Shown here piece after piece: positions 4,356-45,200 of a stretch of 64,000 bases of DNA. The first letter of the stretch is position 1; the number at the start of each line of letters is the position of its first letter. A program made the translations under genes and the position numbers. A model generated the notes under the pieces. That model did no database searches. It was not told the origin of the DNA and was given only the letters and a program-made list of their open reading frames with translations. The stretch comes from Nymphaea colorata (taxonomy: Eukaryota; Streptophyta; Magnoliopsida; Nymphaeales; Nymphaeaceae). Where the stretch lies: positions 23,026,981 to 23,090,980 of the forward strand of contig NC_045147.1 of assembly GCF_008831285.2 (NCBI RefSeq), written 5' to 3'.

Positions 4356-4390
4356 GGCTACGAGGGTGCAAGGATGCAGCCTCAGTAGCC
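4356..4390 (-). promoter_or_regulatory. 3' hairpin element of EXPA copy 1 (near-perfect stem)
   Basis: In gene sense the element starts GGCTAC and ends GTAGCC, a perfect 6-bp outer stem. Inside, GAGGCTGC faces GCACCCTC with one C/C mismatch, closing a 6-nt ATCCTT loop; one U is bulged. It begins about 270 nt past the stop codon. It matches, in core and arrangement, the elements after the other eight copies. Confidence 0.6.
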
Positions 4391-4661
4391 TAAATCCTGC
4401 AGCTCTTTCCCCCTTCTAAATAGAGGATTTAATACAAAAGTCAGGTTAGTTGCAATCTTTCGATCTAGACTTCATGAAACGACTCTTAGTAGTCTTGCCT
4501 ACAAGTTAGAGTTTTCTTCTCCATGAGGAACACAATCATCTGCTTCAGGAAGCTGCAGGGCCAGCCGCTGCTATAACCTTCTGAAAACTGGTCAGAAAAT
4601 CGACTACCCTCTTAAAGTTCGGCTGCCCATCGGAGCAGTAGGTCGTTAATTAGACCTAGTC

Positions 4662-5919
4662 TCAAAACTGACCACCCTCAAAGGTCTGGCCAAACTGCCA
4701 ATTTGCAGGCGCCAGATTGTAGCTGGTGACCGTCTTGCCGTCGCTGGTGGTGACCCGGAGGGAGAGGGACTGGCCATTGAGGTAGGAGTTGCTCTGCCAG
4801 TTCTGGCCCCAATTCCTGGACATGGTCTGCCATCCCGTTCTGGACCCCTTTATGGAGACGGCATGGACGTCCCCTGCACCAGCGACGTTGGTGATGAGCA
4901 CCAGGTTGAAGTAGGAGTGGCCATTGATGGTGAACCTTATTCCTCCCTTCTTTACGCATGGCACCCTGCAAAGAATATCATCATCAGTTCGATACCAAAG
5001 AGAAAATAGCAACACAGACTTGCTTTTTTTGAGCCAAATTTTAGTTTAAAAGTACAACGAAAGATTGATTTAGAAGGTTACTTCTCTGATGCACTGTGAA
5101 ACATAAAAACAATTGTTTTTTCTCATAGCATTTTGTAAGAAAAGCAAAAGCGGATGCCTTTTATTGCTCAAAAATGGCAATTAGGGACGGACATTTCTAG
5201 AACGGCAGTAATTTGAAGATATTAGCCGTCTTCATTTGGAATGAGCTCATCGTCCTGTAAAATCATGATAAACTATCACAAGATCGGCAACAAGCGAGAA
5301 CTAATTTCTCACCTTCTGAATGCTACTGGGACAATCCCTGCCTTGTACTGTGCAATTTGCAGGAAAGCAGGTTCTGCCATGTCGAAGTGCTGGAGGGGAG
5401 GGTTGCACCAGCCACCGTTGTCATTAGCCAAGACGTAGTTCGGGGGGCAGAAGTTCGTCGCCGTGATCGTGATCGTGCCGGGAAGGCACCACCTGGGGTC
5501 ATCGTTGCACTTCATCTCATAACAGGAACCACAGCTCAAACCATCATTGAAAAGAGCAGTGCTGAGTGCAGCAGTGTGTGTGCCATAGCCCTGGCTGTAC
5601 AGGTTGCCATAGCCACATGCTCCCCCTGTTACGTCAAACAATGAATCATTAGCACCAGCGTAAAACAAAAGCAACATTGCCACAGATAGCCGATGAAAAT
5701 TTCCAGTTTCTTCGAATTTCAGGAGGGTCAATTAAAGCCAATTTCCAATGCAAACTACTTACCCATGGTTCCAGATGCATCACCGCCTCCGTAAAAGGTG
5801 GCATGGCCACTCTGCCACCCATAGTCTCCATAGGAGCCAGTTAGACGAGAGGTAAACAAGAGAAAGAAGAGGAACAAGGAACCTGGTCTAAGTAAGGTGA
5901 AGTAATTAAGAGCAGCCAT
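4662..5919 (-). CDS. EXPA: Alpha-expansin, EXPA copy 1
   Basis: Secreted wall-loosening protein that acts non-hydrolytically on cellulose-xyloglucan contacts. Exons, in gene order, are 5763-5919, 5313-5625 and 4662-4965, giving 257 aa. A hydrophobic signal peptide covers about residues 1-31 (through SYG). Domain 1 (GH45-like double-psi barrel) has the cysteines [17 protein letters not shown] and GWC, the alpha-expansin insertion NGGWCNPP, and HFD with D134. Domain 2 (CBM63-like) runs from about VPCVKKGG to the end, with NWGQNWQSN and NWQFGQTF. The ATG at 5919 opens MAALN and agrees with the other copies. Intron 2 is the longest of the array (347 nt). Variants include HFDMAEP, IAQYKAG and NLAPANW. 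By memory it resembles Arabidopsis EXPA2/EXPA8-type proteins. Confidence 0.95.
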
Positions 5920-6024
5920 TGCAACTGCTTCTTGAGCAATGAACAGATGTCAGTTGACCTTCACAAGGAGAGGAAAGGAGAAGAGCGGTGAGTCTGCATG
6001 TGTTAGACGAGGAAGAGGGGCTCT

Positions 6025-6033
6025 CTATTTATA
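6025..6033 (-). promoter_or_regulatory. TATA box of EXPA copy 1
   Basis: TATAAATAG on the minus strand, 106 bp upstream of the ATG, followed by GAGCCCCTCTTCC and an initiator-like pyrimidine stretch. Confidence 0.8.
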
Positions 6034-6178
6034 CTTGCAGGAAAATAAAGGTCAGCTGATGGGATGATGATGATTTTGGGTTGGTCTTGGTGTATAAAAG
6101 AGACAAGTGGGACGCAAATTGTTTCAGGCCGGGCGGGTGTCCCGATTTTAGAGTCATAGTTTACAGTAAGCAAGCAAC

Positions 6179-6250
6179 TGAAGTGCACATGGAAATGTTG
6201 GGTAGAGAGAATACACAAAGCTACCCTCATGGGACCTACTGCACATGCTT
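6179..6250 (-). promoter_or_regulatory. Paired CATGTG module upstream of EXPA copy 1
   Basis: In gene sense, half A reads GCATGTGCAGTAGGTCCC. After about 30-40 bp, half B reads AACATTTCCATGTGCACTTC. The same pair in the same order lies upstream of copies 2-6. The TATA box is about 150 bp downstream. Confidence 0.55.
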
Positions 6251-9200: not shown

Positions 9201-9408
9201 CTCACATAATAATATTACAGAAGCAAACAAGGATACATGCACGACTAGTGCTTCTAAATAAAACAGGGATCAGTTTAACAACTCTAATTATATAATTTCC
9301 CAAATGCTATTTGCCTGCTTGCACTTTAAGTGCAAATAATGCTACCCCATAAAAAGAATCATAAAAGACATATACACATATATTACCTATTCTAAGTTTT
9401 ATAAGCAT
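6251..9408. other. Intergenic between EXPA copies 1 and 2
   Basis: AT-rich DNA with only short chance ORFs. I recognise no gene, RNA or complete transposon. Confidence 0.5.
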
Positions 9409-9448
9409 AGCCTCGCGGGCGCTAAGAGCCACCTCTGCGTTAATGGCC
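9409..9448 (-). promoter_or_regulatory. 3' hairpin element of EXPA copy 2
   Basis: In gene sense the element starts GGCC and ends GGCT, a stem with one G-U wobble. The conserved core is GAGGTGGC, a short loop, then GCGCCCGC. It begins 57 nt past the stop codon. Confidence 0.55.
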
Positions 9449-9504
9449 ATGGCGTTACAGTCATTCCAAAAGAAAAGTGAATTTTCAGCCCTCTTTTTCA
9501 ATTT

Positions 9505-10497
9505 CTAGAACTGACCACCCTCATAGGTCTGGCCAAATTGCCAATTAGCAGGCGCCACATTGTAGCTGGTGACCGTCTTGCCGTCACTGGTGGTGACCCG
9601 GAAGGAGAGGGTTTGGCCGTTGAGGTAGGAGTTGCTCTGCCAGTTCTGGCCCCAATTCCTGGACATGGACTGCCACCCTGTTCTCGACCCCTTTATGGAC
9701 ACCGCATGGACGTCCCCTGCACCGCCGACGTTGGTGATGAGCACCAGGTTGAAGTAGGAGTGGCCATTGATGGTGAACCTTATTCCTCCTTTCTTCATGC
9801 ATGGAACCCTGTTGATCAGAACAACACTACTAAGAAAACTTGTCCTTCTTTCAGACAAATCTGGTCATGTAAGCGACGAGGAGTGCCTTCTTACCTTCTG
9901 AATGCTACCGGCACAATTCCGGCTCTGTACTCGGCGATCTGCAGGAAAGCAGGCTCCGCCAAGTCGAAGTGCTGCAGGGGAGGGTTGCACCACCCCCCAT
10001 TGTTATTAGCCAAGGCGAAGTTGGGTGGGCAGAAGTTGGTGGCAGTGACCGTGATGCTGCCCGGCCGGCACCACCTGGGATCGGCGTTGCACCTCATCTC
10101 ATAGCATGACCCACAGCTAAGGCCATCATTAAAGAGAGCAGTGCTGAGAGCAGCAGTCAGCGTGCCGTAGCCCTGGCTGTACAGGTTGCCATATCCGCAA
10201 GCTCCCCCTGTTTCACAATTCCACATCTAAAATAAGAATCATCACCACCAACGTAAGATAAACCACCGCAATGGCAATTTTTAACTTGTTCCCGGTTGCA
10301 GAATTTTCAAGGACAACCGATTTCTACCGAGATGCAGACTTACCCATGGTGCCAGTTGCATCACCACCGCCATAGAAAGTGGCATGCCCACCCTGCCATC
10401 CATAATCGCCGTAACAGCCGGCAGGAGAAAAAGCAAGGAAGGCAATCAAGAGGAAGAAAGAAGCTGGTCTAATCCCAGAGAACATAAGGGCAGCCAT
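9505..10497 (-). CDS. EXPA: Alpha-expansin, EXPA copy 2
   Basis: Exons, in gene order, are 10344-10497, 9895-10207 and 9505-9808, giving 256 aa. The chosen ATG opens MAALMFSG; upstream in-frame sequence is 5' leader. Signal peptide is about residues 1-30, unusual in having a cysteine just before the cleavage region (AGCYG). Domain 1 is complete with [23 protein letters not shown] and HFD. Domain 2 keeps [10 protein letters not shown] and ends TYEGGQF. Odd residues are CNADP (most copies CNDDP) and PCMKKGG. Introns are 136 and 86 nt; intron 2 shares its sequence with several other copies. It points away from copy 3, and the two flank the 5.4-kb head-to-head gap where the array changes strand. 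Confidence 0.95.
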
Positions 10498-15880: not shown

Positions 15881-16840
15881 ATGGCTGCCCTTAACTTCTC
15901 TTCTACTGCAACAACCTGCTTCTTGCTCGTGATATCGTTGCTTACCTTTTCCCCTACCGGCTCCAACGGTGACTATGGATGGCAAGGTGGTCATGCCACC
16001 TTCTATGGTGGTGGTGATGCATCAGGGACCATGGGTAAGTCTGCATTTCTGCATTCAAGCTGTAAATTGAAGAGTTCAAAATTTGCTTGGGACTGGTGGC
16101 TTATTAGTTTAGATGGGGCAATGTGAAACAGGGGGAGCTTGCGGCTACGGCAACTTGTACAGCCAGGGCTACGGCACACTGACTGCTGCACTCAGCACTG
16201 CGCTCTTCAACGATGGCCTCAGCTGCGGGTCATGCTACGAGATGAGGTGCAACGACGACCCCAGGTGGTGCCGGCCGGGCAGCATCATTGTCACCGCCAC
16301 CAACTTCTGCCCCCCCAACTTCGCCTTGGCTAATGACAACGGCGGGTGGTGCAACCCTCCTCTGCAGCACTTCGACTTGGCAGAGCCTGCTTTCCTGCAG
16401 ATCGCCGAGTACAGGGCCGGAATTGTGCCAGTAGCATTCAGAAGGTGAGAAGGCGGTAACTCTTCTGTTTGTTAACAGACCAGATTTTGTGTGGAAGAAG
16501 AACAAGTTGTCTTAATGGCGTTGTTCTGATTAACAGGGTTCCGTGCGTGAAGAAAGGAGGAATAAGGTTCACCATCAATGGCCACTCCTACTTCAACCTG
16601 GTGCTCATCACCAACGTCGGTGGTGCAGGGGACGTCCATGCCGTGTCCATAAAGGGGTCGAGAACAGGGTGGCAGCCCATGTCCAGGAATTGGGGCCAGA
16701 ACTGGCAGAGCAACTCCTACCTCAACGGCCAGTCCCTCTCCTTCCAGGTCACCACCAGCGACGGCAAGACCGTCACCAGCTACAATGTCGCGCCTGCTAA
16801 TTGGCAATTCGGCCAGACCTTCGAGGGTGGTCAGTTCTAG
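15881..16840 (+). CDS. EXPA: Alpha-expansin, EXPA copy 3
   Basis: Exons are 15881-16034, 16132-16444 and 16537-16840, giving 256 aa. Signal peptide is about residues 1-30 (ending SNG before DYGW). Domain 1 has cysteines C55, C83, C86, C91, C98, C111 and C125, the insertion [10 protein letters not shown] (119-128) and the HFD motif at 131-133. Domain 2 begins near V157-C159 and carries surface tryptophans in SRNWGQNW (205-212) and NWQFGQTF (244-251). Intron 1 splits the codon for Gly52 (phase 1) and intron 2 splits Arg156 (phase 2). Introns are short (97 and 92 nt). It is the first plus-strand member of the array, and all subgroup A residues are present (INGHSYF, HAVSIKG). Confidence 0.96.
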
Positions 16841-16935
16841 TGATTACGTTATGAAACAGGGAAAAGCTGGTTTTGGATTTCCTTCTTTTTTGTTTTTCTT
16901 TTTGGCTTTTGAAGAAAGGAAAGGTTGGTAGGATC

Positions 16936-16976
16936 AGCCGATTCTGCTGAGGTCGCTTAATAGCACCCGCAGGGCT
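16936..16976 (+). promoter_or_regulatory. 3' hairpin element of EXPA copy 3
   Basis: The outer stem is AGCC with GGCT, a compensatory change from the GGCC pair in copies 4-6. The core is GCTGAGGTCGC, loop TTAATA, then GCACCCGC. It begins about 95 nt past the stop. Confidence 0.6.
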
Positions 16977-18230
16977 ATAATTTGGGGTTGTAGTAGATAT
17001 ATTACAGTTTATACATATGCATATATTGTCAATATGATTTTGGTCGGTACTTCGTAGCAGTTTTTTGCATTTAAAGAGCACAGTGGGGCAGATAGTATGT
17101 GAAAGGTGGTGTGATTAATGAAGTTGTTTAACTCATCTCAATTTTATATAATGATCCCTCTGCTAAAAAGTGTGTGTTCACGTAAGTTGAATGAAAGAAA
17201 GAGATTAGTTTTTGGCATTTTGCGACCCCCAAGCTATTCAATCATGTCGACTTCACTTGAGAAGCTAATCAAAAATCCAGGTTCTTCTAAATGTTGCCGT
17301 TTGCAACTCAGATCCGGATCTTATATTTGACATTTATCATGAACTCATTTGACAAGGAAGTTCAAATGAACCGGTTCAAATTTCAATATTCTCACATGCT
17401 CCCGTAAAACAAATATTAATTGCTAACTAACTTAAATTGTTTCTTAGAAGACGTTGGTCTCCATCACGTGTAGAGTTCCAACCCATCTAACTTATGAAAC
17501 TGAATCGTAATTATCCCTATAAGAAGAGAAAAAATATTGTTCTGGACATTTTGATTGTGTTGTTTTTTTGTTCTTTTAGCTTGATTGAATTATTCCATGT
17601 TTCATCGGTACCAACTAGCAAGGGTACAACATCGAAAAACTTACCATTAAAAGTAAAGATTCTTATCATGAGCGTGAATAGTGAAAGATCTGTGCGACCG
17701 TGGACGTATGAGATTATTGCTTCGAACCACGTAAATCTTTGTCTTCTTCATTGTTGCTTCTATCTCCCTTTTGCGAGTGCGAGATGAGAGTTTTGTGTGT
17801 TGTTCCTAACTAAGCGAACCTGAATACCAACAGCAAAACTGTTTGTTGCTATGCAAGCGTTTCTTTCTCGCTTCATATGCATGAGATCGATTAGGCGCAC
17901 ACATTTGTCTAAACCATGAGAAGACTACGTCTGTTTCTCCCTTCTAGACACGCAGTATAAGAGCTTGTCATGTCCAGACAAACGAGATAAGGTAGAGATT
18001 AGGAATCTATGCTCCATAGTAGGACCTTTCACCTTTGAATTCACTGAATCAAATGGACTTTTAGTTTGGCAATTCCGTTTCACTAAGAACCAGAACGGAT
18101 TTGACGGTAGTCTTTTTTTGGTCACGCAAACACTTCCCTATCTGTTCGGGACAGAAACACAAAACCCGCTTGGCTTTGATGAGGGATTGAAATGCTCGAG
18201 GGTACACCGAATGCCGCACTGAGCCCATGT

Positions 18231-20436: not shown

Positions 20437-21422
20437 ATGGCTGCTGCCTTTAAGTTTCCTGCCGCTGGACATGCAACTTCCATTTTCTTCTTCCTGATCG
20501 CTGTGGTTGCTTTTTCTCCAACCGGCTCTTATGGCGACGCTGGATGGCAGAGTGGCCATGCCACCTTCTACGGAGGTGGTGATGCATCTGGCACCATGGG
20601 TATGCCCCCCCCCCCCAGCAAAAAGAAGTTGAAATTGTTATCCATAGGTGTAGGATTGTTTCGTTTCGTCTGTTCAATGGTATTAGATATTCATCGTTTG
20701 GTGTTAATCTGCTGAACAGGAGGAGCTTGTGGCTATGGCAACTTGTACAGCCAGGGCTATGGCACACTTACTGCTGCACTAAGCACTGCTCTGTTCAATG
20801 ATGGCCTCAGCTGTGGGTCCTGCTACGAGATGAGGTGTGACGACGATCCCAAGTGGTGCAGGCCAGGCACTATTACTGTCACTGCCACCAACTTCTGTCC
20901 ACCCAACTTCGCCTTGCCTAACAACAATGGAGGATGGTGCAACCCTCCCCTGCAACACTTCGACATGGCTGAGCCTGCTTTCCTGCAGATCGCCGAGTAC
21001 AGGGCCGGAATCGTGCCAGTAGCATTCAGAAGGTAAGAAGGCAGTGTTCCTCTGTTAACGGACCAGATTTCTTTGAAAGAAGAACAAGTTTTCTTAATGG
21101 TGGTGTTCTATTTGACAGGGTTCCATGCGTGAAGAAAGGAGGAATAAGGTTCACCATCAATGGCCACTCCTACTTCAACCTGGTGCTCATCACCAACGTT
21201 GCTGGAGCAGGGGACATCCACGCTGTGTCCATAAAAGGGTCTAGAACAGGGTGGCAGCCCATGTCTAGGAATTGGGGCCAGAACTGGCAGAGCAACTCGT
21301 ACCTCAACGGCCAGTCCCTATCCTTTCAGGTCACCACTAGCGACGGCAAGACTGTCACCAGCTACAATGTCGCGCCTGCTAATTGGCAATTTGGTCAGAC
21401 GTTTGAGGGCGGTCAGTTCTAG
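20437..21422 (+). CDS. EXPA: Alpha-expansin, EXPA copy 4
   Basis: Exons are 20437-20599, 20720-21032 and 21119-21422, giving 259 aa, the longest copy because the signal peptide region (about residues 1-33) is three residues longer. Domain 1 has [11 protein letters not shown] in place of [16 protein letters not shown] and HFDMAEP. Domain 2 has GDIHAVS and ends TFEGGQF. The intron 1 donor GTATG is immediately followed by 12 C residues, an odd sequence that may hamper sequencing. Intron 2 (86 nt) matches the conserved intron 2 of copies 2, 3, 5, 8 and 9. All catalytic-type and disulfide residues are present, so it should be functional. Confidence 0.95.
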
Positions 21423-21497
21423 AGAGAGAAAAGATAAACATTTACTTGTTCTTTTTATTATCTGGAACAAGGGAAGAAGAAGGATCATGGAATTAGG

Positions 21498-21539
21498 GGC
21501 CATGTACGCTGAGGTTGCTTCCTCGCACCCGCAAGGCCA
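21498..21539 (+). promoter_or_regulatory. 3' hairpin element of EXPA copy 4
   Basis: Outer stem GGCC with GGCC; core GCTGAGGTTGC, loop TTCCTC, then GCACCCGC. It begins 76 nt past the stop codon. Confidence 0.6.
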
Positions 21540-24500
21540 CGGTATAAAGCTCTGTAAAAAATATACATAGTTTCTTGGATGGTAGTAAAAATTGCCCCTT
21601 GATGAAGAAGGCGCAAATGGCAGTTAGGAGTTTGTATAAGTACTGGAGCGATTAATTGGTCTGTGTCATGAGACACTTGTATTAGTTACATGTAAACTCG
21701 TGCATTATGAGATATGGTGAAGACATTGACGTTTATTAAAAGCTGTTCTTTCTTGGCATTGCACTAAGGTGGTCCACCAGCCTCGTTTGTTCTTTTTGTT
21801 ATCATCGGCCATGATTTGTTTCTAACATAACCCGGCATGATACGGGGCGGTGCAGCAAGAAAACAAATGTTGGTGCATTGAAGTTCAATGACATGTTAAA
21901 ATGGTCCTCCTTGTTTCCTTCTCAGCAAATATAGTAGCATTATCTGTTGATCGATTGATTACCTTTTCCTGTCAAACAGAAGATCAATAAAAGAATTTAA
22001 CTCCCCCCAAAACTGAACTGTTTTCAATTTCTCTTCTCTTTTGACAAGGAGTCTCGTCCACAACCAGACTATATCAATGAATCTCTGCTGCAGAAGTAAA
22101 ACCTGGGTGAGAGACAGTAACCAGAGGAAAGCTCCCCGTGACTTGCCAAAATATATTTTAAATGTACAGATAAAATAACTTCCTGCTCATTTCTCTCTCC
22201 CTCTCCCCTACATGTGGCCCTTGGACTCAATTTATCGCTCTTCTGCTTCAAGTGTCATAATGTCATACAAGGATAATACCATGTGACGAAATAGGGACCT
22301 GAAAAGTGTCTTCACTGCAACATACTTTGCAACTTAACGCTTTTTACTTAGGTACTGATCATTTTTCACCATATTTTGAAAAGAAAAGTTGTCGAACAGT
22401 TGTCTTAAGCAGTTGTATCTCCTGCTGATGAATCATGCTATTTGATTGTAACCATTTGTTGAGATTAACAATGGAAAAATTAGTCCATGCTGTGTGCACC
22501 ATTACAGAGAGTCCACTTACCACATTTACTTAGTGCAACCACAAATAGTACTTTGATTTTATCTTCTTTCTCTTTGCATGTTTTTCATTTTGCTTGGCTT
22601 TCTTGTTCCCGGTGACAAATTGGCGCACAATTTAGTTAATGCATTCCCGTTTCATCGGCACAAATAGTACTTTGAAACAAAACACCAAGCAAGATGTCAT
22701 ATATGAAGAAAGCAAGAAATTGTATGACAAATAACAAAAGAATAGTCTTCCTGGCATTATTAACCAAAAAAAAACTGGCCGCAAGCGCAGTATAGAAAAC
22801 TTTCACACCCACATAAAGTAAAACCCAAGAAAGAGAATAGTAGTAACACAAAGCAGTAAGACAACATAACCGACAAAAAAGACCAAAAAAAAAAAATCTC
22901 TTTTCTTCAGAAAAACACAGGAAAATATTGTTAAAGAAACGCCTCAATGTAAATCAAAGAGTCTTCACAAGATCAGAAATCTTAAGTTCCATACAATTTC
23001 CTCCCTCCATCTCTGTTTCTTCCATCTCTGTTTCTTTCTTCAAAGCTTCGATTCAATCCCGCTGCAACTGACGGAAATCCTGGGAATTGCCAATCACAAT
23101 TAATGACATGGCATTTTAATAGCATCAACATTGGCGTAGCTCCAAAAACGGTGATGATCAAGGGGCCTCGAAAAGTCTCGGAGATCCATTCCGGCGATAT
23201 CATTGATCCTGGAATCGGCTTACGTGTTGTCACCGTCTTCTTCCTTCATTCATTTAATCCTTTGTTGATAATTTATTGCTGGATGACAATGAACCGGACA
23301 CGCCGCAGACCAGTAAATGAAAGACGGCCCATTCAAGCGGTATACACCGATCGGGCAGATGACACGTCAAATCATTGGTTGTTGAGTATATTATATCTTC
23401 GCATCATCACCGTCCGCTCTATTTATTATATCTTTTGAACCAAATCGCGGCGTCTACTTCCGGAGCTATGACCGGTCTCCCTTACTTTGAAGAGGGCAGT
23501 AGAGCACTGCCCACATTAGCTTATCATCCGCTGCCGTCCAGCCACATCGCTAGATCGCCGGAATCAGGCGCCGGATTGGAAGGGACTTGCGCGCACCTAG
23601 TTTTCGTGTCCAAGTTTCAGCTGCAGAAGTGCCAACTACGGCTAACCATGAATTTCTCTGCCAGTAGCAAAGGCCAAAACTTTTTGGTGAGGGACACTAA
23701 TACATGGTAACCTAAACTTAAATCTTCAAAAAAAATTTAACCTCATTAAGTACAAGCACCAATATATAATAGACCAATTCATTTGGCTATATGTGGCCAA
23801 TTGCCCACACTATTCTATAAGTGGCTCTGGTACGTGTTCATGCCACATGAGGTATAAAGGTGCAAAACGGATCCTATTTGGATCGAACAAATGAGAAATT
23901 AAGTTCAAACGTCCCAAAAAATTTTGTACTCCTATAGCAGCTTTGGAAGAAGGGGAATCACGCAACCTGAAGGATCGGCACAAAACGTGCTCTGATCTGA
24001 TGATTATACTCGCTTTGCTTTTTCTTGTTTTCTTGGTATCTTTCTCTTTTACATCGAATTTCAATCCGGCTTTCTGCAGGCCGTGCATCATTTAACAAGA
24101 GAAACACGTGCAGCAAATGCACGCGGAAGAAGCGGAACAAATTGCGAAGAACAAACTAAGTCAAATTATTACGATCACATAATTATAGAAATTAGAGAGA
24201 GAGAGAGAGAGAGATTTTCATGGTCATGTATACTGCCTACTTAGATAAAGTAACCTTGGAAGAGAGGGAGGGATAAAGAGAGAAAGAGAAGGTGCAGTAA
24301 ACAAAAAAAAAAATTGAACATTCTGTAAAAAGTGACTTCACGTTTCTATTGTGCCTCTCTCTACAGTAGAGATTACATCGTCTGCTTAACACTCTAAGTC
24401 TCTAACTCCTGTTCTTTGTATGACCGAAAAGAAAGCATCTTCCACACGACAAGTTGAACCCATGTGACAGACAGGGGCGCCATTTATGGTTGCTTCTTTG

Positions 24501-25591: not shown

Positions 25592-26596
25592 ATGGCTCCT
25601 CTAATTAACCCCTTCTCAGCTACCCTAGTTTCCCTCTTCCTCTTGATTGTCTCGTTTGCCTTTTCTCCTACTGTCTCTTATGGTGACTTTGGATGGCAGA
25701 GTGGGCACGCCACTTTTTATGGAGGTGGCGATGCCTCTGGGACTATGGGTAGGTCTAAAACTCGCTGGATATCGGCATTGGTCAGGCCTTCTTTAACTAG
25801 AAAGAGGCGAAGCCTTTGTCATTAGTTTGTTGGACCATAATTATCTGGATGCAGACGTGTTCTCATTAATTCAGTATTTGCTGTGAAATTTTGGAACAGG
25901 GGGAGCTTGTGGCTATGGCAACTTGTACAGCCAGGGGTATGGCACACTCACTGCTGCACTCAGCACTGCTCTCTTTAACGATGGCCTCAGCTGCGGGTCT
26001 TGCTATGAGATGAGGTGCAATGACGACCCCAAGTGGTGCCGGCCGGGCAGCATCACAATCACTGCCACCAACTTCTGCCCCCCCAACTACGCCTTGCCCA
26101 ACAACAACGGAGGGTGGTGCAACCCTCCGCTGCAACATTTCGACTTGGCTGAGCCTGCTTTCCTGCAGATTGCTGAGTACAGGGCCGGAATTGTCCCCGT
26201 GGCTTTCAGAAGGTCAGTCCTTGCCTGCCAGTACACTAACATTTTGCTGAAAGAGGAACAAGTTTTCTTAATGGTATTGTTCTGATTAACAGGGTACCCT
26301 GCGTGAAGAAAGGAGGAATAAGGTTCACCATCAATGGCCATTCTTACTTCAACTTGGTCCTCATCACCAACGTCGCTGGTGCAGGGGACGTCCACGCTGT
26401 GTCCATAAAGGGGTCGAGAACAGGGTGGCAGCCCATGTCCAGGAACTGGGGCCAGAACTGGCAGAGCAACTCCTATCTAAACGGCCAGTCCCTCTCCTTC
26501 CGGGTCACCTCCAGCGACGGCCGGACGGTCACCAGCTACAATGTGGTGCCTGCCAATTGGCAGTTCGGCCAGACCTTTGAGGGTGGTCAGTTCTAG
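25592..26596 (+). CDS. EXPA: Alpha-expansin, EXPA copy 5
   Basis: Exons are 25592-25748, 25900-26212 and 26293-26596, giving 257 aa. It starts MAPLINPF, unlike the MAA- start of most copies. Signal peptide runs to about SYG before DFGW. Domain 1 is complete ([28 protein letters not shown]). Domain 2 has VTSSDGRTV and NVVPANW where most copies have VTTSDGK and NVAPANW. Intron 1 uses the donor GTAGGT. Intron 2 is the shortest of the array (80 nt) and has the conserved end TTGTTCTGATTAACAG. No lesions. Confidence 0.95.
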
Positions 26597-26660
26597 AGAG
26601 GAAGATGGAGGACGTACTTCTTATATTTCTTTTTTGTTTTGAGATTTGGAATATAGGAAG

Positions 26661-26710
26661 GGCCATGCATGCTGACTGCTGTGGTTGCTTTCTAGCGCCC
26701 GCAAGGCCAT
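26661..26710 (+). promoter_or_regulatory. 3' hairpin element of EXPA copy 5
   Basis: Outer stem GGCC with GGCC. The left arm has a small insertion (GCTGACTGCTGTGG), followed by TTGC, loop TTTCTA and GCGCCCGC. It begins 65 nt past the stop. Confidence 0.55.
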
Positions 26711-31562: not shown

Positions 31563-32586
31563 ATGGCTACCCTTAAGTTGTCTATGACTAGACCCACTTC
31601 CCTCTTCTTCTTCATTGCCTTCTTTGCCTTCTCTCCTACTGTCTCCTACGGTGACTCTGGATGGGAGAGTGGGCATGCCACTTTCTACGGCGGTGGTGAT
31701 GCATCCGGGACAATGGGTAAGTCTGCATTCTGCGGAATGCTGCATTTCATTGATTCTTCTGCAACTTGGAGGGGTTAAAATTTGTCATTAGCGGGTGCAG
31801 GGCTGTTTTTGTTTCATATGTTGGGTGATTCATATATTTGATGTGCAACTATGCATCAGGGGGAGCTTGCGGCTATGGCAACTTATACAGTCAGGGCTAC
31901 GGCACGCTGACTGCTGCACTCAGCACTGCTCTGTTCAACGATGGCCTGAGCTGTGGGTCCTGCTACGAGATGAGGTGCAACGACGACCCCAGCTGGTGCC
32001 GGCCAGGCAGCATCATGGTCACTGCGACCAACTTCTGCCCGCCAAACTTCGCTTTGCCTAATAACAATGGAGGGTGGTGCAACCCTCCCCTGCAGCACTT
32101 CGACTTGGCCGAGCCCGCCTTCTTGCAGATTGCTGAGTACAGGGCTGGTATTGTCCCTGTCGCATTCAGAAGGTGAGAAGATAGTTCTAGTGTTTTAATA
32201 ACCCAAATTTGGCTGGAAGAAGAAGAAGAAAAAGACGTGACGCATGTATTTTTTTTTTTGCTTGGTGGGTTGTTCTTAACAGGGTCCCATGTGTGAAGAA
32301 AGGAGGAATAAGGTTCACCATCAATGGCCACTCCTACTTCAACCTGGTGCTCATCACCAACGTCGGTGGTGCAGGGGACGTCCATGCCGTGTCCATAAAG
32401 GGGTCGAGAACAGGGTGGCAGCCCATGTCCAGGAATTGGGGCCAGAACTGGCAGAGCAACTCCTACCTCAACGGCCAGTCCCTCTCCTTCCAGGTCACCA
32501 CCAGCGACGGGAAGACTGTCACCAGCTACAATGTAGCGCTTGCTAATTGGCAATTTGGCCAGACCTTTGAGGGTAGCCAGCTCTGA
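31563..32586 (+). CDS. EXPA: Alpha-expansin, EXPA copy 6
   Basis: Exons are 31563-31716, 31860-32172 and 32283-32586, giving 256 aa. Signal peptide is about residues 1-30. Domain 1 has distinctive WESGH (others WQSGH or WQGGH) and SWCRPGSIM, with the cysteines, NGGWCNPP and HFD intact. Domain 2 carries NVALANW in place of NVAPANW and ends EGSQL instead of EGGQF. Intron 2 (110 nt) lacks the conserved sequence seen in six other copies. The 3' end of intron 1 shares CATATATTTGATGTG with copy 8 and a close form with copy 7, so it looks transitional between the two halves of the array. Confidence 0.95.
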
Positions 32587-32662
32587 GACATGGGGATAGC
32601 AAGAGAGAATATTTTTTATCTCTTGTTGTCTGTATGAAGAAAAAAAGATTGCAGGACTGGGG

Positions 32663-32703
32663 GGCCATGAATGCTGAGGTTGCTTTCTAGCGCCCGCTTG
32701 GCC
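32663..32703 (+). promoter_or_regulatory. 3' hairpin element of EXPA copy 6
   Basis: Outer stem GGCCA with TGGCC; core GCTGAGGTTGC, loop TTTCTA, then GCGCCCGC. It begins 77 nt past the stop. Confidence 0.6.
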
Positions 32704-35700
32704 GTCAGTCCTGTCACAGAATAGTATACCTCAATATGTTATGCATATTCCTTCAATGGCAGCATTTCTTTGCCCTTGGAAGTGGAAAGAGGCATTTAGT
32801 ATTTGAAAGTTTGTTTGACTAGGAAATCTTTATAATTGGTCCTTTGTTTTATGTAAGGCACCTGCATTTAGATGTGTACTTGTGAAATACGAATCTTATC
32901 AAGAAGATGCTTCGTATAAAAAGTTGTTTCCATTGGCATTTCACCAATACGATCCACCAGAACTGTCTTGATTTTCTTTTATTTTTTCCAATCGCATATG
33001 GCAGAACTTGAAACAAACAGTAGAGGCAGGAACCATCTAAAGGCGGAGGAAGTTTGAAAATGCACAATCATAAGAGCGGTATAATTTCAGAAAGGAACCA
33101 TTAAAAAGAGGAGGACAAAGAGGTAATCACGAGAGTCATAAAGTCTCAACATGTGCAATTAATTGAACGAAGAGTAATTCAGAGATTAACCATTAAAAAC
33201 AGTGACAGGAAGACGATTAAAAAATTGCAGAAAGTTTTAAATTCGCGCAATTAATAAACAGGGTAGACAAGGAGAGTAATGAGATTTGAATGAAACCTTT
33301 ACCATCTTAGGCTAAAAAGTGACTTGCCAAATTGATACTTGAGTGTTGAAAACAGTAACAGTCTTAAATAAGGAACAGAATTCTCAGTTTGAAAATTTCC
33401 ACTTGCTACTTAAAGATGGCTGCGTTGCTGTTCCTGCAAGTAATTGGCCAGCTATCTGTCATAAAGAATGAATTTAATAGCAAGCGGATTTCGATTCTAC
33501 ATAATTTCTAGAATTCAAACATTGTGCATGTGTGGCGGTTTTCGAAACGAGCAGATTGGCTGAAATGTACCTGCACAAGAATTTAGTTGCACATGTGATT
33601 TTGCATTTTTGAAAGCGGGAAAGAGATTAACATTTTCAGATGTATAAATGTGATTTGCAGTAAAGATGTCTCTCAAAATCTATAGGTTGCAAAATTTGTT
33701 CTAAACCTCCAAATAAACTGATCCAGTAATGCATCTCTAAGGAGTAAAATTTGTTAATCACATCTCGACAGAAAAATACTTAAAATAAAGGGTCAAAGTT
33801 TGATCTTTTAGATGTAGTGCTGAATTTTTGTTCAGCATGTTTTTCTTCCCCCTCCTCCGCAGGAATCCATCCTTCAGAAAGGAAAACCTTGAGCATGCCC
33901 AAACCAGCCTTGAAAGATCAAGCAGCAGAACGGGAGAGTTTGGATTTAATCCAAGATGATCACCTTCCTTGTTCAATTAAATCACATGGGATCCACTCTT
34001 TTTCTCTGCAAGTCCTTGCACATGGGATCCACTGTTGATATTTCTGATAGTGAGCAATTTTTCATGAAGGTTTTAACATGGGGTTTTTCTTTTTGCCCCC
34101 TCTCCCTTTGACAAAACAGAGGTTCTTCAATGAACTTTTTCTTGTGATCTGCAAAAGGGAGAATCAGAAACTAGTTCGAGTTACACGACCAGCGGTTGTA
34201 GCCTCATGCTCACGAGCAACGGAAGATCCTTCATGATGCAATTGCACAAAAATTGTCTTAAATTTCTAAAATTTATAGTTTATGGAATCTTATTTGCACA
34301 TCCAAACCAACTGATTCCAGTTCTAATTGGCGAGTTTTTTCTCAGGTATAATATGGTAAACTTGAAAAAAAAAAAGGATAAATTTTGAAAAAATTAGAAA
34401 AACTAAAGTAAGGAAAAAATGAAATAAAACATAAACATAAAAAAAATAAGTAGATTTACAACAAATAAAAAAAAAAAAACAATTCATCATTAAAAAACGT
34501 GAAAAAGGAATAAAAGGAAAAAGGAAAAACACGTGTTTCTTTCTCTCTTTTTTTATTTTAAAGTTTTTTTATTTACCGCATTTTTTCGTCTTAAAAAAGA
34601 AGTGTTTTTTTTTGTGTGACTATGATATCCGTAATAAGACTTAAACTTTCATCCTGAAAATGAATTTGCCTGTTGCGACTAGTTGCCCAAGAGATCACTC
34701 ATCCACATGACTAAGAAAATGCACTTCAACTTTTGAAGTGAAGAAGGTGAAGACTTATAACTCTCAGGATCAGAATTTGACAGGATATGCCCAAGGCCTT
34801 GCATTGAACAGGAAAGGCCCATTGATCTGCCTAAGCTCTCCCGCTCGCTCCTCAAGAGATCATGTCTGCCAAATCAAAAGCGGTCAGCAACCTCCACCAT
34901 CCATGTTTTTATGATAACTGTTATGATTGCAAACATAAATCAATGCATGTAATTTTGGTGGGCTTCATCACCCCATCATCTGTCATGAAAGTGATTGGAC
35001 GGGATGAAGTATGGTGAGGATGTAGGATTATTTTTCAAAAGAGATTGGCGCTCAACCCGAATTTCTCTCCCATTTTTTACATGTTCCTCGTTATTCTCGC
35101 ACCTGAGATGCAAACAAATCACATAACAAAAAAATTTCATCCTCAAATTGCGCGAGAAAGAGAAAATTCCGAGAAACTATCAGGAATTGATGGGACTCAG
35201 GTGCCAATATCGTCGTCACAGGACGGGAGCAGAATTCATTCTCCAACGACAATCAGGTGTCGAAGTTTCGCTCCGTTCATCCAAGGAGCGGAAGAACGCA
35301 TCCACCAGACGACAAATTCTGTCACTGTATATGCATATGAACCGTAATCAGGGCCACCATTTATGGTGGTAGCCAGTCTTGGTCAACGGAGTCTGCTAAC
35401 AATCTTCAGTCTTTCAAAGATAATATAAATTTCAAGTTTTGATAAAAACAGGAGTTAGGCGTTCTGTTTCCATACTGACCCAAATCTGTCACTAGTTATC
35501 ATGCGGATCATACCTCAAGGATCAGACAAAAGTGTTTGTACTAATGCTGGTTTTGAGGGTCTTGGTGTTGATCTTAAAACAGGGAATGTGCTTGCCCATT
35601 TTAGAAACACAAAATAAGTTTTTATTCGGGAACCCACTTTTTCCTCTGAACTCAAGGAACACTACCCACTTTTGAATTTCATGAGTTGGATGTTCCTTTC

Positions 35701-35850: not shown

Positions 35851-35852
35851 AG

Positions 35853-35972: not shown

Positions 35973-37086
35973 ATGGCTGCACTAATCACGTCCCTGGCTA
36001 CTACACCAGCTTCTTTCTTCCTCTTGATCCTCGTGTTTGCCTTTTCTCCTGCTGGCTCCTCTGCTGACTATTGATGGCAGAATGGCCATGCAACTTTCTA
36101 TGGTGGCAGTGATGCAACTGGGACCATGGGTAAGTGTGAGCCTCATCCAATATTGAGCGGCTTTCACTACTCTTTTGAGTCGTTTGAGAACCAAAGAAAT
36201 TCAAATTCCTGAAAAGGGCCTTTGTAAAATTTGTTGGTAACTTAATGTTTTTGTGACGGTTCATATATTTGTGGTCATGATGATTCTCATATTTGATGTG
36301 CAATTCTGCAACAGGTGGAGCTTGTGGATATGGCAACCTGTACAGCCAGGGCTACGGCACAATGACCGCTGCACTCAGCACTGCATTGTTCAACGATGGC
36401 CTCAGCTGCGGGTCATGCTACGAGATGAGGTGCAACGACGACCCCAAGTGGTGCCGGCCTGGCAGCATCACGGTCACCGCCACCAACTTCTGCCCGCCGA
36501 ACTACGCCCTGGCTAATGACAATGGGGGGTGGTGCAACCCTCCCTTGCAGCACTTCGATTTGGCAGAGCCTGCTTTCCTGCAGATCGCCGAGTACAGGGC
36601 CGGAATTGTGCCGGTGGCATTCAGAAGGTAAGCAACTCGACCGATTGGTTCTTCGATCAAGCAATTTCACAATTCTTATTGTTCTGCTATCACAAGTACT
36701 ACAAAATACACCTTGTGAATCAGAAGTTCCTGCTAACGATTCAGATTTTATATGTTCTTTTGTTGGCTGTTGTTCTCAACAGGGTTCCATGTGTGAAGAA
36801 AGGAGGAATAAGGTTCCAGATCAACGGCAACCCTTACTTCAACCTGGTGCTCATCACCAACGTGGGCGGCACCGGAGATGTCCATGCGGTGGCCGTGAAG
36901 GGGTCGAGAACAGGGTGGCAGCCCATGTCAAGGAACTGGGGCCAGAATTGGCAGAGCAACTCTTACCTCAGAGGTCAATCCCTGTCCTTCCGGGTCACCA
37001 CCAGCGACGGCAGGACCGTCACCAGCTACAATGCTGCGCCTGCAAATTGGCAATTCGGGCAGACCTTCGAGGGCAGCCAGCTCTAG
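35973..37086 (+). pseudogene. EXPA: Alpha-expansin with premature stop, EXPA copy 7
   Basis: Exons would be 35973-36129, 36315-36627 and 36783-37086 (257 sense and nonsense codons plus the final stop). Codon 34 (36072-36074) is TGA where all other copies have GGA, the glycine of DYGWQ, so translation should end just after the signal peptide. Everything downstream is intact: splice sites, cysteines, [20 protein letters not shown] and the end EGSQL. Restarting at a later ATG would lose the signal peptide. A single substitution in an otherwise open gene suggests very recent inactivation, an allele-specific null, or a base-call error. Other oddities are [14 protein letters not shown] and GGTGD. 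It belongs to subgroup B with copies 8 and 9. Confidence 0.85.
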
Positions 37087-37205
37087 ACATAAATACATGG
37101 ACATGCACTATTGCCGGAATGCACAGCATAGAGACGCATACATGTTGGCGAGTCTGTCTGTTCAGTCGAGAGAACAAACGTCGGGGTCAAGAATTGCAGA
37201 GACAG

Positions 37206-37245
37206 GACCATGGGAGCTGAGGTGGTTGCACATCACCCGCTTGTC
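37206..37245 (+). promoter_or_regulatory. Decayed 3' hairpin element of EXPA copy 7
   Basis: The core GCTGAGGTGG and CACCCGC are kept, but the outer stem is reduced to GAC with GTC. The decay fits loss of function of the gene. Confidence 0.45.
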
Positions 37246-40200
37246 ATATATATATATATATAATTCTTTTGGTAGAACATGTCGGCCTTTGAATGAGCTA
37301 GAATAAATCATCAAGGGGAAGTTTGATAATTGCTTGGATAGTTCATCAGCGAAGATAATGAGTGCATTGTAACAGAGACGTTTAAATGTTAAAAAAAAGA
37401 AAAAAGAAAATCTTTGTTAGATTTTCCAAATCAAATATCGAACTTGAAAAATCCCGATCGAAAATCCAAAGCTTTTTATTTGCTTTCGAATCAACTCATC
37501 AAAAATTGATTGAATAAATAAATGCAAGCTTCTTCAAGGGTTTGGATTTGTGAGCATTCGCTGTAAGTTTCACATCCACGGCAATAATTGAATCCCTTTT
37601 CTCAATATGTGAATTGAAAAAAGAAAATCCATTATTTGAATATCATGTATTTTATCTTTTAGAGAAATGCTTGCTAATGAATAAGCCATAAAAGTTGTTT
37701 AACAAAAAGATTTGATATGCTTAATAAAATATTAGGCCGGCAACAAAATCAAAGCAATATATCTAAATCGGTAAGAGGAGTTCCACAACACAAGCGTAAT
37801 GTTTTGTGAATCAATCCTAAAAAATTGAGTAGATTTGGTTTTGTATATTAGTTCCATCAATATGGCAATTGACTTCTATTCTTTAATTTAAAAAGTTGGT
37901 GATTGAAATCTATTATTTAATAGAAAATCTTTTTTTTTTTGTCAAAAAGAGTCCTCTGTCCTTGACCAACTTCCACTTGAAGGGGCTTAAGTCCTACTCC
38001 TCCCCATAAACACTGTGAATTTTTTTTTTCTTCTTAGCTGAGCTTAGAGAAATGGTAACCAAATTATCACTACACAAACTGGTGTCTGGATATCAACGTT
38101 GTTAAGGTAATTGAAAATCAAATCCAATCAGACCTTCTTTGAATCAATAAATGGCTGGGATTGAAGGGGCACATAGTATATTTCGCATGATAATTCTTTT
38201 ATTTTATATTCTCAATTTCCTTTTTCTTGGCTTGCGTTTATTTGCTCTATGAATTTTTACAATACGAAATTAAATTTATTTTATTTTTTATCCAATTCAC
38301 AAATGGTATCAATTCTATCTCAGTTCAGACAATTTTCCGAATGTTAGGCTCACAGGATGAACTGATTTGGAAGCCAAATATTCTAATAAAATTCCCCTGA
38401 ACTTATCAACTGATCTCTCAAGCCTAACCCATTAATATTATCCACCACTACTAGAGCATGAGCTACGTGCATCATTGATATTTGTCATTCTGAGCTTCAT
38501 CTTTTCTTAATATGATAATATGTTCGTATGACGTTAGTGAGTCCGATTCTCCTTCGCCACCCTTTCAAACTGAGATAGCCAAACAATGAAATTGAGTTAA
38601 TCGTGTTGAGAAAGGCAGGTGCATTCCGGCAAAAGAAATAAGGAGGTTTTCCTGTGAAATTTGACGCAACTGCTTTGACCAGCGGCTGGTATACGGTCGG
38701 TCCCTGGTTCCAATTCTTTGCACAAGTCAAAGCAAGGCTAGGCTACAAGAATAAGTGTCAAGTTTATAAGAATTTGGCTATAGCTTTTGAAGTTTTAAGT
38801 TCTAGGGGGAGCGACAAAGTCTCGCAGCCTAAGTTTAGCTTCCCAGAGCTATAAATTGAAAAGAAAACCAGCTATTCTCTAGGCAGCAACCACTGTTTGG
38901 GTAGGAAGGAGCAAAGTAGGCCTTGGGAAAATAAAAGAAAGAGTTTATATGGAGCGAACCTGGTTAGTCACAGTAAGTACACTTGGCCTTTACTTAAAAG
39001 CCGCAGTGTAACTAGTTCTCTATATTTAGCCGACAAAATGGAAATATATAACAAAATTTGAAGACAAGAACTCCAGAGCAGGCTAGTCGCCAATCCCTAA
39101 AGATAAGTCCAACAACGTGGTGTGGAGGTTTTGGTCCTGGTTTGTTTTTATGTTCCCCAATCCCATCAATTTCAAACACCATTGGATTACCTTGGTAGGT
39201 ACGCAACCGAACCGACTTTTCCGACCCTAATCCACCATTTATGCAGTGATCTATGATGAAAGGGACGTGGTTACGTTCAAAGCTATAGTTGTTTTGAACT
39301 GTCAATATCATGGAAAGATGTTTGAAATGCATCTCCTCATTAGGGGAAGGGATGGATTTGGCATTTTTGCGGTCTCTTTCTTCTCTTAACCTACTTGTCA
39401 GTCTATTCATGAATCCTCGCCCTGAAAACTTGATTAAACCAGAGTATCCACGCTCAAATTTTGGTTTTATAACAAGGTTAAGACATAAATATTCGAATGT
39501 TAATTTGAAGAGTTTAATGGTAATTATCTTGAAACTATGTATTTCCTTAGTCTTATATAATTTATACATACCTTGCAATATTTTGAAGTGCATGGAGGCA
39601 AACATCTCATTTTAGTTTTGAGTTGTCAGATTTTAAAGTTTTTGAAATGGGTAGGGTGGACCGGGTCGAGTTACCAAACAGCCTAGTTCATACCCTTTAG
39701 TTCAGACTCAAGCCCTAGGCCAAGCCCAAGCCCATTTTCCAACATTTGTTTCGAAAATATTTCATCTTACCTCTCAATTTCATTTTGAAAATAAAAGTTT
39801 TTAATTCAAAAAAAAGGAAAAAAAAGAGAGCTAATTTTTCTTGGCAAAATCGCAATGTGACCTTCATGCAGTGAAACGTATAAATTGGCTGTCTCATCAA
39901 TTTACTTGGGTGCCCAGACACACATATATGAAATGTTCACAAAAAATATTCCTATTCATCTCTACGATTTAATTTCTCCCGCAACTTCATCTCATCACAT
40001 GACGAGAAGCAGATTTTCAAAATGTTTCTGTCGTTCTTCTTGTGATGAAAGGAGACGGATGACCGTCCTCACGTCAATCAAGGGGGCGCCATTAATGGGG
40101 AGTCAAGCTTACCAGCTGCCGACGATCATCGCATGCATCGAGCAACCTTTTCCTCAAGCAACTCAAAGTCCCAAATTCCAAATCTTGACCAAGAGTTTTG

Positions 40201-40599: not shown

Positions 40600-41602
40600 A
40601 TGGCTGCTCAGAACTTCCCCACACCTAAACGAGCTTCTGTTTTGCTTCTGCTCCTCGCGTTCGCCTTTTCCTTTACTGGCTCCTACGGGGACTATGGATG
40701 GCAGAGCGGCCATGCCACATTCTATGGTGGTAGTGATGCAACGGGGACGATGGGTAAGGCTCTGAGTGTTGCTTCTTCTGGCAGTATTAAGCCTTCTTAG
40801 ATTTGATGAAATTGAAATTGCTGCCGTAGATTGCTGCGTTTCTTGTGATGACATGTGATTGTTCATATATTTGATGTGTAAAACCGTGGAACAGGAGGAG
40901 CTTGTGGTTATGGAAACTTGTACAGCCAGGGCTACGGCACGCTCACTGCTGCACTCAGTACTGCCCTCTTCAACAATGGCCTGAGTTGTGGCTCCTGCTA
41001 CGAGATGAAGTGCAACGACGACCCCAAGTGGTGCCGGCCGGGCACCATCACGGTGACCGCCACCAACTTCTGCCCGCCGAACTACGCCTTGGCTAATGAC
41101 AATGGCGGGTGGTGCAACCCTCCCCTGCAGCACTTCGACTTGGCCGAGCCTGCTTTCCTGCAACTTGCCGAGTACAGAGCCGGAATTGTTCCAGTAGCAT
41201 TCAGAAGGTAAGAAGGCAGTAAAGTCCTCGTCCGTCAACAGACCAGATTTGTCTGAAAGAAGAACAAGTTGTCATAATGGGTTTGTTCTGATTAACAGGG
41301 TTCCATGCTTGAAGAAAGGAGGAATAAGGTTCACCATCAACGGCAATCCTTACTTCAACCTGGTGCTGATCACCAACGTGGGTGGCGCAGGGGACGTCCA
41401 CGCCGTGGCCGTAAAGGGGTCGAGAACAGGATGGCAGCCGATGTCCAGGAATTGGGGACAGAACTGGCAGAGCAACTCCCACCTCCAAGGTCAGTCCCTC
41501 TCCTTCCGGGTCACCACCAGCGACGGCAGAACGGTCACCAGCTACAATGCAGTGCCTGCAAATTGGCAATTTGGCCAGACTTTTGAAGGTGCCCAGCTCT
41601 AG
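40600..41602 (+). CDS. EXPA: Alpha-expansin, EXPA copy 8
   Basis: Exons are 40600-40753, 40895-41207 and 41299-41602, giving 256 aa. Signal peptide is leucine-rich, about residues 1-30, ending SYG before DYGW. Domain 1 has [10 protein letters not shown] (shared with copy 7), [25 protein letters not shown] and HFD. Domain 2 shows the subgroup B residues INGNPYF and HAVAVKG, with SNSHLQGQS in place of SNSYLNGQS, and ends EGAQL. The PCLKKGG segment is unique to this copy. Introns are 141 and 91 nt, and intron 2 is of the conserved type found in copies 2-5 and 9. Confidence 0.95.
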
Positions 41603-41639: not shown

Positions 41640-41684
41640 ATGGCCGTGAAAGCTGAGGTGGACTGTTACCGCCCGCTCGGCCAT
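41640..41684 (+). promoter_or_regulatory. 3' hairpin element of EXPA copy 8
   Basis: ATGGCCG pairs perfectly with CGGCCAT (7 bp). The inner arms are GGTGG and CCGCC around an ACTGTTA loop. It begins about 38 nt past the stop. Confidence 0.65.
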
Positions 41685-43989: not shown

Positions 43990-43998
43990 TATAAATAG
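43990..43998 (+). promoter_or_regulatory. TATA box of EXPA copy 9
   Basis: TATAAATAG, 110 bp before the ATG, followed by CTCCACCTTTGCAGAAGCAC. Confidence 0.85.
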
Positions 43999-44099
43999 AG
44001 CGCCCTCTCCACCTTTGCAGAAGCACAATAACTCGACTTCTCCTTGTACGCATATAAATTGAGCCTTTGCTCTCTGCCATCCCTCAAAAGGGAGTTGCC

Positions 44100-45070
44100 A
44101 TGGCTGCTTTTAAGTTCTGCACAACTAAACAAGCTTCCTTCTTCCTCTTCATTGTCTGGTTCGCATTCTCTCCTACTGCCTCTTATGGCGACTATGGGTG
44201 GCAGAGCGGCCATGCCACGTTCTATGGTGGTGGTGATGCAACTGGGACCATGGGTGTGTCTTCACTCTTGTTCGAGCATTGACTTTTCGTGCATTCAGCT
44301 TCTTGTTAATGTTGCCTTGTATCATATCTTATGGTGGTATTGATGTTTTTGTGTAATTGACGAACAGGGGGAGCTTGTGGATATGGCAACCTGTACAGCC
44401 AGGGGTATGGCACACTGACTGCTGCACTCAGCACTGCTCTGTTCAACGATGGCCTCAGCTGCGGGTCATGCTACGAGATGAGGTGCAACGACGACGCCAA
44501 GTGGTGCCGGCCGGGCAGCATCACGGTCACCGCCACCAACTTCTGCCCGCCGAACTACGCCTTGGCTAATGACAATGGCGGGTGGTGCAACCCTCCCCTG
44601 CAGCACTTCGATTTGGCAGAGCCTGCTTTCCTGCAGATCGCCGAGTACAGGGCCGGAATTGTGCCGGTAGCATACAGAAGGTAAGAAGGCAGTCCTTGTC
44701 TGTTAGCACACCAGATTTGTCTCAAAGAAGAACGAGTTGTCTTAATGGTATTGTTCTATTTAACAGGGTTCCATGCGTGAAGAAAGGAGGAATAAGGTTC
44801 ACCATCAACGGCAATCCTTACTTCAACCTGGTGCTCATCACCAACGTTGGTGGCGCAGGGGACGTCCATGCGGTGGCTGTAAAGGGGTCGAGAACAGGGT
44901 GGCAGCCCATGTCCAGGAACTGGGGACAGAACTGGCAGAGCAACTCTTACCTCAGAGGCCAGACCCTCTCCTTCCGGGTTACTACCAGCGACGGCAGGAC
45001 CGTCACCAGCTACAATGCAGTGCCGGAAAATTGGCAATTTGGCCAGACCTTCGAGGGTAGCCAGTTCTAG
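44100..45070 (+). CDS. EXPA: Alpha-expansin, EXPA copy 9
   Basis: Exons are 44100-44253, 44368-44680 and 44767-45070, giving 256 aa. Starts MAAFKF; signal peptide is about residues 1-30. Domain 1 is complete with HFD and all cysteines but has CNDDAKWC (others DDPKWC/DDPRWC) and ends AYRR in place of AFRR. Domain 2 carries subgroup B residues INGNPYF and HAVAVKG, plus NAVPENW and a final EGSQF. The intron 1 donor is GTGTGT, weaker than the GTAAGT of most copies. Copy 9 is the right-hand end of the array; the gap to copy 8 (3.5 kb start to start) is the smallest. Confidence 0.95.
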
Positions 45071-45156
45071 ACAAAGAGAGATTAGACAAGCATACACGCA
45101 TTGTTGGTAGAGAATGAGCGAGAGAAGAGAGAGAGAGAGAGAGAGACATTGTATGT

Positions 45157-45200
45157 AGCCATGAATGCTGAGGTGGTCTCAGTTAGCACCCGCTTGGCCA
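45157..45200 (+). promoter_or_regulatory. 3' hairpin element of EXPA copy 9
   Basis: TAGCCA faces TGGCCA with one A/C mismatch; the core is GCTGAGGTGG then GCACCCGC. A second local hairpin, CTGAG GTGGT CTCAG, is possible. A (GA)n run lies just before it (about 45117-45146). Confidence 0.5.

Follow-up and report, generated by a model that had tools for sequence, protein, structure and literature searches.

Why do nine neighbouring expansin genes carry the same short, foldable sequence behind their stop codons? The question arises in a 64-kb stretch of the water lily Nymphaea colorata (C10:23026981-23090980 of the 407.8-Mb assembly, hereafter the window) that holds nine EXPA genes of three exons each, copies c1 and c2 on the minus strand and c3 to c9 on the plus strand. 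The original prediction, made from the letters of the window, placed a hairpin after the stop codon of every copy. We located such an element in all nine, with a length of 39-52 nt and a start 37-269 nt past the stop codon (Table 1). The core pattern G[AT]GG[TC]NG and C[AG]CCC[GT]C, separated by 5-12 nt, matches ten times in the 64 kb, two of these matches overlapping in c7; the resulting nine sites are exactly the nine elements, and 20 dinucleotide shuffles gave no match.

The element consists of two stems, an outer one resembling GGCC/GGCC and an inner one in which GC-U-G-A-GGU-N-GC faces GCRCCCGC. The sequence does contain the outer arms that the prediction gave for copies 1, 2, 3, 6 and 8, but the inner stem carries unpaired bases on its 5' side and is nearly invariant, so that covariation lies in the outer stem. 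Copy c1 pairs in a register of its own. When flanks are included in the fold, c6 has the strongest hairpin of the nine (-30.7 kcal/mol). This copy alone has its outer stem lengthened by an 8-bp repeat, CAGGACTG/CAGTCCTG (window 32651-32715).

No other part of the 3' flank is as well conserved as the element. When 600 nt of each 3' flank are aligned with MAFFT, mean pair identity is 0.66-0.68 in the 20-column windows over the element core and 0.35-0.57 in windows clear of the element, among the windows listed, from which those with few comparable columns were left out. With each of four references (c3, c4, c6 and c9), the highest-scoring 12-mer within the first 350 nt falls inside the element; for reference c6 it reaches a mean best identity of 0.84 to the other eight copies, compared with a median of 0.69 and a shuffle maximum of 0.76. 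The element is thus kept while its surroundings diverged.

The sequence is also specific to these genes. Two scans of the assembly (408 Mb) used fixed-spacing patterns with two mismatches allowed, by design missing variants such as c1 and c9. With a spacing of 10, there were 13 matches against 7 in the reversed control; all five with at most one mismatch lie in the cluster, and the eight two-mismatch matches are c7 and seven places elsewhere. The scan with a spacing of 9 gave 13 matches against 3 in the reversed control, and the two with at most one mismatch are c2 and a tenth gene, L035, on C5. All seven matches with at most one mismatch in both scans therefore follow EXPA genes, and none of the 18 loci elsewhere (7 + 11, all two-mismatch) matched the covariance model. 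Because the near-exact matches are confined to EXPA genes and the other loci fail the model, the element is no repeat, and the two scans and the model together revealed no genome-wide scatter of the kind expected of a transposon. A looser pattern, GAGGTNGN{7,11}CRCCCGC, was set aside as too loose to be informative about other genes, with 50 matches (7 in the window) against 27 in the reversed control; among the 29 of its 43 matches outside the window that were checked with model R2, the best reached 17.8 bits (E 0.2, L005).

The tenth copy came from a search of the assembly with exon 3, which gave 28 matches, nine of them the cluster and the two weakest (31-34% identical) perhaps not EXPA. The 19 loci outside the cluster were taken with 1.5 kb of flank on each side and scanned with models R1 and R2, and one, L035, which is 94% identical in exon 3, has the element (L035:1904-1947; 43.3 bits, E 7e-9, by the seven-copy model R1, which had not included L035). 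Its outer stem, GGCU/AGCC, has exchanged C-G for U-A just as that of c1 has, and the upper part of its inner stem, GGUGCUU/AAGCACC, is uninterrupted and lacks the N bulge. Compared with c6, 38 of 44 aligned positions are kept (by eye, with one gap besides) at a dS (synonymous divergence) of about 0.86. Applied to held-out cluster copies, model R1 gave 37.8 bits for c5 (E 2e-7) and a partial match of 11.2 bits for c1 (E 2.5). The element had been called weakest in c7, whose exon 1 contains a stop codon. The outer stem of c7 is indeed weak, but the held-out c5 and c1 both score below c7, which reaches 44.8 bits as one of the members of the model. The two arms of c7 fit each other poorly, the native right half ranking 6-9 of 9 in six settings with the outer stem.

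The relationship of L035 to the cluster bears on the age of the element. In a DNA tree the nine copies form a clade (support 98) with L035 outside it; in a poorly resolved protein tree the nine are not a clade, and c1 stands beside L035 and L038 (support 37-38). Values of dS between L035 and the nine cluster copies are 0.69-0.94, which exceeds the divergence within most of the cluster, and those between L038 and the others, where computable, are 1.8-2.6. A search with one nsLTP gene of the window places its three best matches away from C10 on C5, at 24.51-24.54 Mb and some 84-120 kb from L035. A Ks peak of about 0.9 is reported for the water-lily whole-genome duplication (PMC7015852). Most simply read, the two regions on C5 and C10 would be a pair left by that duplication, with collinearity judged from the nsLTP genes alone; a later segmental duplication is a possible alternative origin of the relation between L035 and the cluster. 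Since the dS of L035 and the nearby nsLTP genes fit the genome duplication, the element is probably older than the cluster and probably predates that duplication as well.

Several results favour matched arms. In an arm-swap test, the left half of each copy was joined to every other right half and folded, and the native set was compared with random pairings. For the nine copies with the outer stem, native combinations are more stable (p 0.0014-0.008, with 0.012 in one setting), and the inner part alone gives p 0.05-0.06. Including L035, the values for ten copies are 0.0006-0.003 with the outer stem and about 0.04 for the inner part alone. Folding of the aligned elements with RNAalifold (eight copies, no structure supplied) recovered both stems, with changes on both sides in three of the 13 pairs. 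Of the eight cluster copies other than c1, five (c2, c3, c6, c7 and c8) have this common fold as the minimum-energy fold of their trimmed element. Among the eight aligned copies (L035 added to seven from the cluster), five pairs are changed on both sides (equalled in 5/500 shuffles), the covariation score is 0.185 (equalled in 15/500), and 87.4% of cells are paired (reached in 9/500), a fraction that drops to 36-41% when the arms are slid by 1-3 columns.

We further let each column evolve by itself on the gene tree, with as many changes as were observed, in a simulation of our own that is simpler than R-scape. For ten copies and seven outer pairs, 79.7% paired cells and eight both-sided cells were observed; this level of pairing was reached in 0.50% of 4000 runs, the number of both-sided cells in 0.15%, and the two together in no run. 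In the same order, the five pairs closest to the core (columns 3-7) give 2.3%, 2.5% and jointly 0.18% of 4000 runs. When c1 and L035 are removed (3000 runs), seven pairs still give 0.6%, 2.3% and jointly 0.03%. By this simulation, covariation with ten copies is beyond phylogenetic expectation; for the cluster alone, covariation judged by shuffles is weak.

A number of results weigh against a selected RNA hairpin shared by expansin messages. In the arm-swap test, three of 20 control positions gave p < 0.05 (range 0.019-0.997; the positions overlap, lie further downstream and come from the same flanks). Leaving out c1, c6 and c8 raises the p-value with the outer stem to 0.07-0.25 for the six remaining of nine copies and to 0.026-0.27 for the ten-copy set, which returns to 0.07-0.25 when L035 is dropped too. 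For the seven well-aligned cluster copies, covariation is not significant, with 58/500 shuffles reaching the score, 55/500 the paired fraction and 112/500 the both-sided pairs. In the simulations the rows of c1 and c5 were aligned by hand, and without c1 and L035 the five core pairs are weak (2.8% for pairing, 8.7% for both-sided cells, jointly 0.9% of 3000 runs). An alternative inner fold is preferred in c4 by 5.5, in c5 by 6.1 and in c9 by 2.8 kcal/mol. Stability beyond that of a copy's own shuffles is clear for c1 (z -5.6) and c8 (z -2.8) and marginal for c3 (z -1.95), with no such excess in the remaining six of the nine; individual stability was discarded as weak evidence, the combined z being dominated by c1. 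The antisense strand folds as well as the sense strand (sums over ten of -160.6 versus -161.9 kcal/mol), and among the eight aligned copies G-U occurs in 8 cells versus A-C in 6, with no clear excess; for these two reasons the strand is not settled. Finally, 18 of the 19 other loci have no match with either model, including L038 (92%), L040 (88%) and L043 (82%), so that attributing the element to expansin mRNAs in general was too wide, with the caveat that strongly changed copies could be missed because R1 hardly finds c1 (11.2 bits).

Taken with these points, support for pairing is moderate and leans on c1, c6, c8 and the tenth copy. The argument from compensatory change to selection on RNA structure, as originally put forward, is partly borne out: conservation, the arm swap, ten-copy covariation and the simulation support selection on a conserved element with paired arms, and covariation within the cluster alone is weak. 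The element itself is real, conserved, old and gene-specific.

The explanation we favour, at about even chances, is a cis-acting RNA hairpin in the 3' untranslated region (UTR) of one EXPA subclade that would tune mRNA decay or translation. Presumably lying inside the mature message, the RNA would form an outer stem of GGCC/GGCC type followed by an internal loop (about 6 nt versus 2) and then by the nearly invariant inner stem, with bulges on its 5' side and a short loop on top. A protein would recognise the fixed inner part, and the outer stem, able to vary as long as it pairs, would hold the inner hairpin in shape. The output would be message lifetime or translation, as with the known plant elements discussed below. 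From position and orientation we infer that the RNA, and not a DNA palindrome, is what selection acts on.

The nearly invariant inner arms, in which six of nine pairs never vary among the eight aligned copies, could instead be a linear motif, either a site for a single-strand RNA-binding protein or a small-RNA site, with pairing as a by-product. The unexceptional stability of six of the nine single copies agrees with this. We nevertheless think a linear motif unlikely, as native arms match better than swapped ones and the outer stem has both-sided changes. Plant small-RNA sites are near-complementary over about 21 nt, and the longest conserved runs here are only about 8 and 6 nt, with the spacing between them varying by up to 3 bases, which speaks against the small-RNA version in particular.

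Equal folding of the sense and antisense strands and the absence of a clear excess of G-U over A-C would also be expected of an element selected as double-stranded DNA, such as a downstream enhancer or a chromatin or transcription-factor site with dyad symmetry. Two observations count against it, neither of them decisive: the element always lies on the coding strand of its own gene shortly past the stop codon, L035 included, and its outer arms exchange letters where a DNA-binding site would keep them. We regard this explanation as quite improbable. About as doubtful, or slightly more so, is a part in 3'-end formation, by which the hairpin would help to place cleavage and polyadenylation. AU-rich stretches containing signal-like words (TATAAA, TGTAA) do occur within 5 bases downstream in c1, c2 and c4, and secondary structure is described as a possible aid to plant poly(A) signals (PMC7457121), but the spacing varies, and c3, c5, c6 and c8 have none of eight scanned words in the 100 nt downstream.

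Mere shared ancestry, or gene conversion among tandem copies, would account for likeness between related genes whose dS ranges from 0.25 to 0.88. It is very improbable as an explanation of this element, since the flanks have diverged and the element has not, a conversion tract would bring flanks along, and the unlinked L035 keeps its similarity to c6 at the dS given above. The insertion of a small transposable element (miniature inverted-repeat transposable element, MITE) by these genes is hardly credible: small inverted-repeat elements can form stem-loops and the spacing-9 scan has 11 two-mismatch matches elsewhere against 3 in the reversed control, but no direct support was found, the matches with at most one mismatch (5/5 and 2/2) all follow EXPA genes, and the 18 other loci fail the model.

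We compared the element with known RNA elements. Rfam 15 gave no match at gathering score in the 64 kb, and relaxed Rfam searches started from the elements of c6 and L035 turned up three matches, each scoring far under its gathering threshold (E 1.7-5). Within 420 nt of the stop codon, none of the nine cluster copies contains ATAGAT, a DST motif, or the Pumilio (PUF) response element, UGUANAUA. As to a tRNA-like mobility signal, ARAGORN detected no tRNA fold in the window. Expansin messages are reportedly localised within cells, to judge from the title of one report; we know of no sequence element from that work, and a link to the present element is speculation. A role in message localisation is possible. 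The open-access literature searched yielded no such element in expansin 3' UTRs, and the main text of a 2024 survey of plant expansins that includes N. colorata contains neither 'UTR' nor 'untranslated' (PMC11547041).

Two described plant systems offer the closest parallels. The DST element of SAUR 3' UTRs is described as comprising repeats of ATAGAT and GTA motifs and as causing message instability (PMC7457121). Like it, the expansin element is a short conserved 3' UTR element in a growth-gene family; unlike it, the expansin element is paired and has other letters in other genes. The HD-ZIP IV genes Roc8 and OCL1 are reported to have a conserved 3' UTR segment (20 of 50 bp) predicted to form a stem-loop, and in rice Roc8 a 50-bp deletion led to more protein (PMC7680540). 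Here, too, a stem-loop is conserved in the 3' UTR of a plant gene family, though in our case the genes are expansins. The HD-ZIP IV stem-loop is kept across monocots and dicots, whereas the expansin element is seen in one subclade of the one genome covered. It belongs to neither of these classes and would act like them, if at all.

Table 1. Window coordinates of the nine EXPA genes and of the elements that follow them
Feature	Position	Strand	Remarks
EXPA copy 1	4662..5919	-	three exons
EXPA copy 2	9505..10497	-	Expansin_C PF01357 in exon 3
EXPA copy 3	15881..16840	+	
EXPA copy 4	20437..21422	+	start codon at 20437 read from upstream letters
EXPA copy 5	25631..26596	+	exon 1 match begins at query residue 14; true start slightly upstream
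EXPA copy 6	31563..32586	+	
EXPA copy 7	35973..37086	+	in-frame stop codon in exon 1; exons 2 and 3 open
EXPA copy 8	40600..41602	+	
EXPA copy 9	44100..45070	+	
Element c1	4354-4392	-	continuous outer stem GGCUAC/GUAGCC, without internal loop
Element c2	9407-9450	-	outer stem AUGGCC/GGCUAU, one G-U
Element c3	16934-16978	+	outer stem AGCC/GGCU
Element c4	21496-21540	+	outer stem GGCC/GGCC
Element c5	26659-26710	+	short insertion on the 5' side
Element c6	32661-32705	+	outer stem GGCCA/UGGCC, lengthened outside by CAGGACUG/CAGUCCUG
Element c7	37204-37247	+	outer stem of three pairs; gene with stop codon in exon 1
Element c8	41640-41684	+	outer stem AUGGCCG/CGGCCAU
Element c9	45155-45201	+	outer stem with one A-C mismatch

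The nine tandem EXPA genes (window 4662-45070) make up a large cluster; the largest expansin cluster named in the 2024 survey has ten genes, on wheat chromosome 3B (PMC11547041). It is flanked by nsLTP-like genes (PF00234; window 2479-2946 and 59496-59975), which extend over C10:23.016-23.117 Mb and have a smaller counterpart group close to L035 on C5. A 264-nt repeat is present in two copies that are 73% alike (window 56315-56578 and 59610-59873), both overlapping nsLTP-like matches. Upstream of the genes, a TATA-box block, AGTATAAATAGA, is conserved about 110-130 nt before the start codons of c3 and c9, with a mean best identity, measured as for the element, of 0.89 in eight genes (600 nt upstream, c5 omitted, references c3 and c9). 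A second block downstream, resembling TTGGCATTTCACTAAGGTGGTCCACCA, was seen by eye about 335-470 nt beyond the stop codon in c4 (window ~21755-21790), c5, c6 and L035 (about 465 nt past the stop) and may mark the 3' end of the genes.

For water-lily petals, Expansin-A transcript levels as high as about 7,300 fragments per kilobase of transcript per million mapped reads have been reported, and by 18:00 several of these transcripts have lost more than half of their 6:00 level, with others falling less or not at all (PMC6042438). Regulated turnover would make sense with transcripts so abundant and several of them dropping by 18:00, should the cluster genes be among them. An extended scenario, in which the hairpin was fixed before the Nymphaealean duplication and gave the messages of one expansin subclade a shared, regulated lifetime or translation, so that petals could adjust wall loosening up and down daily with the opening and closing of flowers, is quite unlikely as a whole.

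To our knowledge, expansins have been studied mostly as proteins and promoters. If the favoured hairpin is real in function as well as in form, a structured and old 3' UTR element in ten genes would provide a handle on the post-transcriptional control of expansins, and the question of how expansin mRNAs are localised or turned over could be put to the test on 45 nt of sequence. The set of conserved 3' UTR stem-loops with a plausible function would gain a plant family as well.

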